A stretch of DNA of 64,000 nt. It comes from Dictyobacter arantiisoli (GTDB taxonomy: Bacteria > Chloroflexota > Ktedonobacteria > Ktedonobacterales > Ktedonobacteraceae). The first letter of the stretch is position 1. The number at the start of each line of letters is the position of its first letter. The stretch spans positions 1 through 64,000 of the forward strand of contig NZ_BIXY01000033.1 of assembly GCF_008326305.1 (NCBI RefSeq). Reading direction: 5' to 3'. The notes below the pieces were generated by a model, which ran no database searches, was not told where the DNA came from, and saw only the letters and a program-made list of their open reading frames with translations. Positions 40,969 through 60,045 of the stretch are shown piece by piece. A program made the position numbers and the translations under genes.

Positions 40969-41024
40969 GTAGGTGCGTGCCGAGGTCGCAACCGAGGTGC
41001 GCTTTCCCTTTCCTCGTACCACCA
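40969..41024 (+). repeat. Short interspersed repeat B, copy 2
   Basis: Nearly identical over its length to 11479-11536 (GTAGGTGCGTGCCGAGGTCG onward, ending CCTCGTACCACCAT). It lies just downstream of the hybrid kinase, as copy 1 lies just downstream of the M32 gene. Confidence 0.8.
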
Positions 41025-41037
41025 TTGCACCCAAAAA

Positions 41038-41079
41038 CGTAGGTCGCAACCGAGGTGCGCTTTTCCCTTCCTCGTACGT
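41038..41079 (+). repeat. Short interspersed repeat B, copy 3 (shortened)
   Basis: CGTAGGTCGCAACCGAGGTG continues to TTCCTCGTACG. It lacks the GCGTGCCG part of the full unit and follows copy 2 after 13 bp. Confidence 0.75.
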
Positions 41080-41138
41080 TGAAGGGGACAGCTACTGACT
41101 GGGTTTTCCGGGCATTCAGGCGGCGAGGAAAAAGATGG

Positions 41139-41224
41139 TTATCCACATGAAAGATGGTTTTTGCACACGTGCCTGCGACTTTTGCACAATGCTTGCACAT
41201 TTGTCAGCGCAGAGCTGTGGATAA
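41139..41224. promoter_or_regulatory. Cluster of DnaA-box sequences
   Basis: A perfect DnaA box TTATCCACA (41139-41147, plus) is followed by TTTTGCACA at 41159-41167 and 41180-41188, both fitting the relaxed TTWTNCACA consensus. A degenerate GCTTGCACA lies at 41191-41199. A second perfect box on the minus strand, TGTGGATAA, is at 41216-41224. Start-to-start steps are 20, 21, 11 and 25 bp, so the middle three are close to helical phasing. dnaA, dnaN, gyrB or parA are not in the window. It could titrate DnaA, regulate the following gene or belong to an origin-like site; the boxes themselves are clear. Confidence 0.6.
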
Positions 41225-41355
41225 GCTACTGGCCCTCTGTCAGCACATCAGTTACACTTCTCATAACAGCATTTATTCAGTTATCTCCGGTGTCAGCCAC
41301 TGATCGCACCCGTTGGATAGCTTCTTTATTGACGTTTGAGGAGAGGAGTTTCTTG

Positions 41356-42006
41356 ATGTCATCATCAGAAGTCGCTGAAGGCGCAGCAACCGGTGCGCTA
41401 CGTTATAGTACATTACGCCATCGCCCGATCCAGACAACCACAGCAGCTGTGTATGTTACTACACCGCGAGCCTCTCTGGGCAGGGGTGCTCAAGCAGCAC
41501 CCATCACCGAGAACACGCTTCATCCTATTCAGAACTATGCAGCATTGCACGCTCAACGCATCAAACGTCAACAGCACTGGACAGTGACGGTGGGCATCTC
41601 AATGCTCGGTATGTGTCTGCTCCTATGGCTGGCACAAAGCCTCTGGCACTGGGGAACCATCACCTATGATGACCTTACGTATGGACGACCTCGCACGATG
41701 CAGACAGATGCCTATGTCGGGCATGAAAGCAGCAGCCATAGCACTCCCAGTCACTTTATCGCGCTTAATCAGCACGGCCGTATCGAGATCATTGAACTGC
41801 CGGGGGGGGATGCCAGCCATGCGCACATTATCCTCGGACCACAGATCTGGGGACCAGACGCTGATCTTGTACCCATCACGCTCAGTTTTGTACCATCCGC
41901 AACGGGACAGGGTCGACAACAGGACATGATCATCTCCTTTCAAGGATCACGCATCAGGCTGCGCAACGAAAAAGGCACCTTCGTTCTACCCTCTACATCC
42001 AATTAA
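41356..42006 (+). CDS. Single-pass membrane protein, unknown function
   Basis: 216 residues from the ATG at 41356 (GAGGAG 8 nt upstream). A longer frame from 41161 would run through the DnaA-box cluster and has no ribosome binding site. Residues 1-75 are a hydrophilic cytoplasmic part, a membrane helix (WTVTVGISMLGMCLLLWLAQ) follows, and the external C-terminal 110 residues look beta-rich (HFIALNQHGRIEIIELPGGD, IRLRNEKGTFVLP). No family is recognised. Confidence 0.75.
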   Translation: MSSSEVAEGAATGALRYSTLRHRPIQTTTAAVYVTTPRASLGRGAQAAPITENTLHPIQNYAALHAQRIKRQQHWTVTVGISMLGMCLLLWLAQSLWHWGTITYDDLTYGRPRTMQTDAYVGHESSSHSTPSHFIALNQHGRIEIIELPGGDASHAHIILGPQIWGPDADLVPITLSFVPSATGQGRQQDMIISFQGSRIRLRNEKGTFVLPSTSN

Positions 42007-44084: not shown

Positions 44085-44147
44085 GTGTTTAATTCCCAAT
44101 ACCAGCAGGTGAGCAGCAAGATCCCGCTGGTATTGGGGGCCTGACAC
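44085..44147 (+). repeat. Multi-hairpin repeat, copy 4a (63-bp remnant)
   Basis: It starts with a type B left end (GTGTTTAATTCCC), jumps to the GAGCAGCAAGATCCCGCTGG block and finishes with a type A right end (GGCCTGACAC). The ends therefore no longer pair, but AATACCAGC still pairs with GCTGGTATT. It looks like a mosaic formed by deletion or recombination between two copies. Confidence 0.8.
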
Positions 44148-44158
44148 TCTCTATGAGT

Positions 44159-44354
44159 GTGTCAGCCTCCCATGATCTCCACGGTCTCTGTGCATGAGTT
44201 TTCGCACCTGCGGTGCTCAAACATCTTTTTATTGTGTAGTGCAGGAAAGGTGCACAGCACCTTTCCTGCACTACACAATAAAAAAGGGCGCAGGCGCGCA
44301 AGCGCCTGCCAGCCAGGGAGCAGCAAGATCCCGCTGGTATTGGGAGGCTGACAC
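44159..44354 (+). repeat. Multi-hairpin repeat, copy 4b (full length, type A ends)
   Basis: A 196-bp copy with perfectly paired ends GTGTCAGCCTCCCA / TGGGAGGCTGACAC. The central 28-bp inverted repeat at 44226-44253 / 44257-44284 is perfect, with an ACA loop and arm sequence different from copies 1 and 2b. The GC-rich palindrome reads GCAGGCGCGCAAGCGCCTGC (one mismatch). An 11-nt linker (TCTCTATGAGT) precedes it and another (TCTCTATGACA) follows. Confidence 0.9.
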
Positions 44355-44365
44355 TCTCTATGACA

Positions 44366-44560
44366 GTGTTTGATTCCCATGCTCTTCGCCATCCTGGTGC
44401 ATGAGTTTTCGCACCTGCGGTGCTCAAAACTGTTTTTAGTGTGTGGTGCAGAAAAGGTGCATAGCACCTTTTCTGCACCACACACTAAAAAGGGCGCAGG
44501 CGCGCAGGCGCCTGCCAGCAAGTGAGCAGCAAGATCCCGATGAGAGTGGGAATCAAACAC
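44366..44560 (+). repeat. Multi-hairpin repeat, copy 4c (full length, type B ends)
   Basis: A 195-bp copy with ends GTGTTTGATTCCCA and GTGGGAATCAAACAC pairing. The central 28-bp inverted repeat at 44433-44460 / 44464-44491 is perfect, with an ATA loop, and identical to that of copy 5 at 59773. Tandem with copy 4b but of the other end type, so the array was not made by simple duplication of one unit. Confidence 0.9.
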
Positions 44561-44572
44561 TTTGTATGAGTG

Positions 44573-44640
44573 TGTCGGACTCCCATGCTCTCCACGGTCT
44601 CTGTGCATGAAGATCGCAGGGACATGAGAATCAAGTACTC
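44573..44640 (+). repeat. Multi-hairpin repeat, copy 4d (left-end fragment)
   Basis: It begins GTGTCGGACTCCCATG and keeps the CTCCACGGTCTCTGTGCATG stretch. It then diverges and ends with CATGAGAATCAAGTACT, a degraded type B right end. All inner hairpins are gone. Confidence 0.75.
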
Positions 44641-59503: not shown

Positions 59504-59705
59504 AAAAAACTGTGCCGCACTTATCTACTTTGCGGCTACAAGGCGTCTTCCTTAAGGTTCATAACACCTGGCAGGACATTTTTTACTCTGCCATGAAATT
59601 TCAGATGGCTTTCTGCCAGGTGTGATGACACCATGCATAACCACTTGTTGAATATCAGGCTGTTGTGTGTAACACAGGGCCAGCTACGTCAAAGACACAA
59701 AGAAT

Positions 59706-59900
59706 GTGTTTGATTCCCATGGTCTTCGCCATCCTGGCGCATGAGTTTTCGCACCTGCGGTGCTCAAAACTGTTTTTAGTGTGTGGTGCAGAAAAGGTGC
59801 ATAGCACCTTTTCTGCACCACACACTAAAAAGGGCGCAGGCGCGCACGCGCCTGCCAGCAGGTGAGCAGTAAGATCCCGCTGGGAGTGGGAATCAAAAAC
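59706..59900 (+). repeat. Multi-hairpin repeat, copy 5 (full length)
   Basis: A 195-bp copy with type B ends (GTGTTTGATTCCC / GGGAATCAAAAAC). The central hairpin 59773-59800 / 59804-59831 is a perfect 28-bp inverted repeat with an ATA loop, identical to copy 4c. The GC-rich palindrome is GCAGGCGCGCACGCGCCTGC. It lies 200 bp from the Tn3-type end. Confidence 0.9.
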
Positions 59901-60045
59901 TTTGTTAGGCAATAGGTCCTGGTTGACTGAACGGATGATCTCTTTTCGAGGAGGCAAAAAGAAGAAAAACTCGTGTAACATTTTTGGAGTATTTAGCGTC
60001 TTATGAGGGAGAGAGAGTTTCTCATATCAGGGAGGGAGATGTGCT

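Follow-up and report, generated by a model that had tools for sequence, protein, structure and literature searches.

A conserved DnaA-box array as a probable DnaA-controlled promoter of a membrane-protein gene in Dictyobacter arantiisoli

Introduction

Does a tight cluster of DnaA boxes away from dnaA mark a replication origin, a titration site, or a promoter? The question is raised by an 86-bp stretch in the draft genome of Dictyobacter arantiisoli (7.2 Mb, 256 contigs). Here we analyzed a window of 64,000 nucleotides, positions 1 to 64,000 of contig NZ_BIXY01000033.1 (C33), in which five boxes precede a gene for a predicted membrane protein. The initial annotation left three readings side by side: a DnaA-titration site, a promoter through which DnaA controls the gene at 41356, or part of an origin not linked to dnaA. 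It also described replication genes as missing nearby, and none was recognized among the window ORFs that we scanned or read by eye. DnaA is a known transcription factor, though its regulons have been described in few phyla; in other bacteria it activates or represses promoters (PMC8203912, PMC4447404, PMC11317965). From the sequence comparisons below, the array together with a -10 at 41253 is probably a DnaA-controlled promoter of the gene at 41356-42006.

Results

The box array and its chance expectation

The five boxes within 86 bp and their 20-21-11-25 bp steps were reproduced at the positions first reported. The elements are as follows, with offsets counted from the inverted proximal box and identities given as mean pairwise values over five same-genus sequences.

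41139..41147, + strand: DnaA box 1, TTATCCACA (perfect); offset -77; identity 0.96
41159..41167, + strand: DnaA box 2, TTTTGCACA; offset -57; identity 0.87; kept as TTWTNCACA among relatives
41180..41188, + strand: DnaA box 3, TTTTGCACA; offset -36; identity 0.80
41191..41199, + strand: weak box 4, GCTTGCACA, read from sequence; offset -25; identity 0.76, measured one base off frame
41216..41224, - strand: proximal inverted DnaA box 5, TTATCCACA (perfect); offset 0; centre at about -45 of the predicted start; identity 0.96
41230..41235, + strand: predicted weak -35 region, TGGCCC, placed by alignment
41253..41258, + strand: predicted -10, TACACT, 28 bp past box 5; identity 0.85
41356..42006, + strand: putative controlled gene downstream of the array, 216-aa protein

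The boxes at 41139(+) and 41216(-) are the only perfect ones in the window. With the window's own first-order composition as the model, the expectation for 64 kb is 0.50 perfect boxes, and pairs as close as 41139/41216 are expected 3e-4 times per window or 0.034 times per 7.2-Mb genome. Four TTWTNCACA boxes within 86 bp occurred in 0 of 300 simulated windows, which bears out the early judgment that a perfect pair with phased relaxed boxes is unlikely by chance. The genome as a whole contains 128 perfect DnaA boxes, compared with 43 matches to the reversed pattern. Just 5' of the array, at 40970-41080, lies a GGTCGCAACCGAGGTGCGCTTT repeat.

Conservation of the element with one gene clade

The best-matching members of the downstream gene family in four same-genus genomes and several other genera have the same array upstream. 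Outside the boxes and the -10, identity among the five same-genus sequences falls to 0.46 in the remaining element columns, 0.29 in the upstream flank, and 0.27 in the leader. Across 18 loci the direct boxes lie mostly at about -25, -36, -57, -67, and -78 from the inverted proximal box, in steps of one or two helical turns. The box at -36/-37 is the most widely kept, and many relatives have better matches at -25 than the weak box of the window. A sigma70-like -10, either TACACT or TATACT or closely related to these, starts 28-29 bp past the inverted proximal box in all 18 loci. The predicted -35 is of the type CTAGCG in same-genus relatives and TTGTC in other genera.

A search of 47 genomes of the order for GTGGATAA-N28/29-TAYACTT returned 20 sites, with 0 in reversed controls. 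At 15 of these the gene that follows is a full-length family member, with one site (G008 11340555) assigned by inference across the end of a presumably circular contig, and two precede short N-terminal versions. The other three comprise a box-rich repeat (G006), a site ahead of a short unrelated ORF (G041), and an mraZ promoter (G042). The pattern was derived from the first relatives, and the 28-29-bp spacing is thus partly built into these counts; the -36 and -25 boxes are independent of it, as is the mraZ set described below, which was found by gene search.

A single membrane helix is predicted in the 216-aa product, whose C-terminal domain is beta-rich. Its structure model (mean pLDDT 75.7) consists of a low-confidence N-terminal tail, a long helix at residues 62-109, and the beta-rich domain. 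Sequence searches of Pfam, NCBIfam, and PDB assigned it to no family, and a PDB fold search with the model gave no match at E <= 0.001. The gene belongs to a multi-copy family present in Ktedonobacteria and some other Chloroflexota. In a tree of 56 members, the element is carried by 16 of the 20 members of one clade (support 100/98) and by none of the 36 outside it; the four element-less clade members were read by eye, and one keeps a single perfect box. Genomic position and neighbors of the element-bearing members differ, with the neighborhood rearranged between genomes. Few genes accompany the element, a two-component kinase family at several sites being the exception. D. arantiisoli itself has two more promoter copies (L141:7079 and L143:888, on C86 and C109) before short ORFs of 75 and 102 aa, which keep the N-terminal STIRHRPI...RAS motif and are without the C-terminal domain. 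The locus shows two of the features looked for in a DnaA-regulated promoter, namely an above-chance box cluster close to a predicted promoter and a box arrangement conserved with the gene across species. Of the three early suggestions, the DnaA-controlled promoter is the one that is well supported, being tied to a gene family and to a -10 at an invariant distance across genera.

mraZ promoters

Prompted by the G042 site, we turned to 20 genomes of the order and read their mraZ promoters (L245-L264). In 17 of these, boxes stand before mraZ at about -36/-35, -25/-24, and 0 (inverted), with 2-6 mismatches in total. The closest background triple elsewhere in the window, taken for control, has 8 mismatches; the element itself has 6. 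The most regular cases again have a -10 at 28-29 bp past the inverted box, followed by GTGGGG repeats, which we take to resemble MraZ-binding repeats. Within Dictyobacter the inverted box at mraZ is degenerate (3-5 mismatches), and most genomes retain both direct boxes. In D. arantiisoli the triplet lies at G000:C21:29626, upstream of mraZ (C21:29856), which is followed by rsmH (named by sequence) as in dcw operons. Found in 17 of 20 genomes in the register of the window element, the triplet before mraZ suggests DnaA control of the division operon.

A model for DnaA control

The scheme we infer comprises DnaA binding, promoter activity, a direction of control, and coupling to replication. DnaA would nucleate at the two perfect outer boxes (1 and 5) and then fill the helically phased weaker inner boxes of the -77, -57, -36, -25, 0 array to form an ordered oligomer. 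The oligomer would end about 5 bp upstream of the poor -35 and contact or block RNA polymerase there, so that transcription of 41356-42006 would track how much DnaA is present or its ATP state, and with it replication initiation. Strong outer boxes, weaker phased inner ones, and a box at about -45 beside a poor -35 would suit such an oligomer acting on RNA polymerase. The weak -35 fits activation, toward which we lean slightly; we give almost the same weight to repression by an extended filament of ATP-DnaA or to a two-state switch like that of nrdAB (PMC8203912).

Several features count against a DnaA promoter. The -35 is poor, a consensus promoter scan reported no promoter at 41230-41258, and two boxes in the window are only loose fits to the E. 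coli-type consensus. ChIP in E. coli favors box pairs 2-3 bp apart (PMC11317965), a spacing found within the array between boxes 3 and 4 only, and the inverted box at mraZ is degenerate in the window's own genus. There are also two full-length DnaA paralogues in the genome (L021:5688-7268, - strand; L022:5682-7388, + strand), as in most relatives checked, and either could act.

The sequence patterns suggest that DnaA probably switches the membrane-protein gene and the mraZ operon in step with DNA replication. A broader proposal, which we make tentatively and hold a little short of even, is that a single DnaA-promoter geometry, with direct boxes near -36 and -25, the inverted box at 0, and a -10 that follows 28-29 bp later, serves Ktedonobacterales as a replication-coupled switch. 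It would drive the mraZ operon and a lineage-specific membrane-protein family, a new DnaA-timed component of the cell cycle or envelope. A partial literature search (Ktedonobacter, Chloroflexi, or mraZ with DnaA or DnaA box) found no description of such a promoter and no DnaA experiment in Ktedonobacteria. The part of DnaA in timing division is unsettled (PMC8203912), and a conserved fixed-geometry DnaA promoter common to a division operon and a membrane-protein family would offer a testable link from replication initiation to division or the envelope, in a little-studied and often multi-replicon bacterial class. It would also correct the reading of such box clusters as possible stray origins.

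Origin-like regions and replicon position

A far denser box cluster than the array is on contig C2, where 25 perfect boxes lie within 6.1 kb (G000:C2:15740-21828, L017) around dnaG and rpoD, both named from sequence. AT content per 60 bp reaches 0.85 at this cluster, compared with a maximum of 0.60 at the array. The C2 cluster, which flanks dnaG-rpoD rather than dnaA, is the probable chromosomal oriC, and box-dense regions like it are present in the relatives searched. Neither DnaA paralogue of D. arantiisoli adjoins it; one lies about 13 kb from mraZ. Published work places dnaA/dnaN with parA/parB on Ktedonobacteria chromosomes (PMC13289182), and the dnaA and parB positions that we find in G002 and G003 disagree with that placement.

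The D. arantiisoli assembly is fragmented, and GC skew was sampled in the relatives G002 (in 20-kb pieces), G003, G004, and G010. In the single contig of G002 (brp13), negative skew gives way to positive somewhere from 5.33 to 5.63 Mb, at the oriC-like cluster; the element orthologue is at 1.23 Mb, near the opposite transition on the far side of the chromosome. Orthologues lie on a second contig in G001, G003, G004, and G010. The 2.7-2.8-Mb second contigs of Dictyobacter aurantiacus (G003) and D. kobayashii (G004) are described as chromid-like (PMC13289182), and on both the orthologue is away from the skew switch. On G010 C2, positive skew turns negative no more than roughly 0.1-0.2 Mb from the element, a terminus-like rather than origin-like transition.

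Discussion

Weighing the alternatives

Five boxes within 86 bp could belong to a replication origin unlinked to dnaA, whether of the chromosome, a second replicon, or an integrated element. Orthologues on second replicons in some Dictyobacter, and AAA+ (IstB/DnaC-like) genes 5-17 kb off in four relatives, point the same way. We nevertheless consider an origin highly improbable. The array uses the same 9-mer boxes as the chromosomal oriC but has far fewer of them. It is not the densest cluster of its replicon, has no adjacent AT-rich unwinding region, and its counterparts in the relatives sampled do not lie at an origin-type skew switch. The genome-wide box count, with its denser cluster on C2, speaks against the early suggestion of an origin part, and against that suggestion only. 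In G002 the sign of the skew changes at the oriC-like cluster, and on the second contigs of G003 and G004 it changes at a point distant from the element. Some species have multiple copies per genome, each before the same gene type. A mobile element or second-replicon origin was considered on account of the nearby AAA+/DnaC-like genes in relatives and repeated copies in G008. It was rejected: only the membrane-protein gene consistently travels with the element, and the second contigs of G003 and G004 switch skew elsewhere. A comparison with plasmids gave no DNA match.

The array might instead titrate DnaA or convert its nucleotide state, the neighboring gene being incidental. A datA- or DARS-type site is expected to keep its position relative to the origin, for timing. 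The element does not, given its far-side location in G002 and its second-contig location in four relatives; it stays with one gene clade even where the neighborhood is rearranged or the replicon is a different one. E. coli sites of this type do titrate DnaA (PMC12371093), the genome has several box clusters apart from the oriC-like region, and any DnaA bound at the array would be titrated to some degree. Titration as first proposed survives as a possible side effect, but as the function of the array it is unlikely, leaving both the one-clade linkage and the fixed distance to the -10 without explanation. Less likely still is a different regulator that recognizes a DnaA-box-like 9-mer. Some boxes (TTTTGCACA) do deviate, but at the outer positions perfect DnaA boxes prevail and agree with the boxes in the genome's own oriC-like cluster, and the same register recurs before mraZ, with a similar one beside dnaB. 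To a chance cluster we give practically no weight. Single perfect boxes are not rare, but the close pair is, and the chance reading is already contradicted by the footprint in aligned relatives, where the boxes are strongly conserved while spacers and flanks have diverged and the register is kept across several genera.

Comparison with known systems

The DnaA-controlled promoter proposed here most resembles B. subtilis sda and E. coli nrdAB, which likewise have several upstream boxes, strong and weak mixed, under DnaA control (PMC4447404, PMC8203912). It differs from them in phylum and target gene. The literature searched contained no description of a strict helical register of this kind, in which the inverted proximal box sits 28-29 bp ahead of the -10 and several promoters have the same layout. 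The B. subtilis ftsL and Caulobacter ftsZ promoters link DnaA to division genes (PMC8203912), as the mraZ promoters suggest here; in our case the proposed link comes from order-wide conserved sequence, and the window gene itself is not among the known division genes. E. coli datA, DARS1, and DARS2 are also non-origin DnaA-box clusters, but for the window element the constant partners are a gene clade and a -10, and its chromosomal position varies.

Other clusters and repeats

Further box clusters were observed in the D. arantiisoli genome. At L019:3944-4006, two convergent genes enclose five perfect boxes within 63 bp, and this cluster makes a stronger titration candidate than the window element does. 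A conserved cluster at L018:4820-4881 lies 5' of an ECF-type sigma-factor gene, and its motif, non-box bases included, recurs in G001, G003, G004, and G010. The cluster at L020:4188-4232 has the spacing -36/-24/0 and lies between a divergent gene and a dnaB helicase operon (- strand); in this operon a DnaB_2/DnaD-type gene comes after the replicative-helicase gene. Six relatives have similar clusters 4-5 kb from the AAA+ gene of that region. At L090:13930-16659, the gene of an unassigned winged-helix-like protein is paired with an IstB/DnaC-like AAA+ gene, and in four relatives the two lie within 5-17 kb of the element; the pair might be a replication module of second replicons. Elsewhere in the window, 44089-44608 and 59655-59981 are dispersed intergenic repeats whose spurious ORFs have a VFDSHSQRDL.AHLLAGACAPAPFLVCGAEKVL-type translation, seen twice in the window, with similar ones on C67 and C21.
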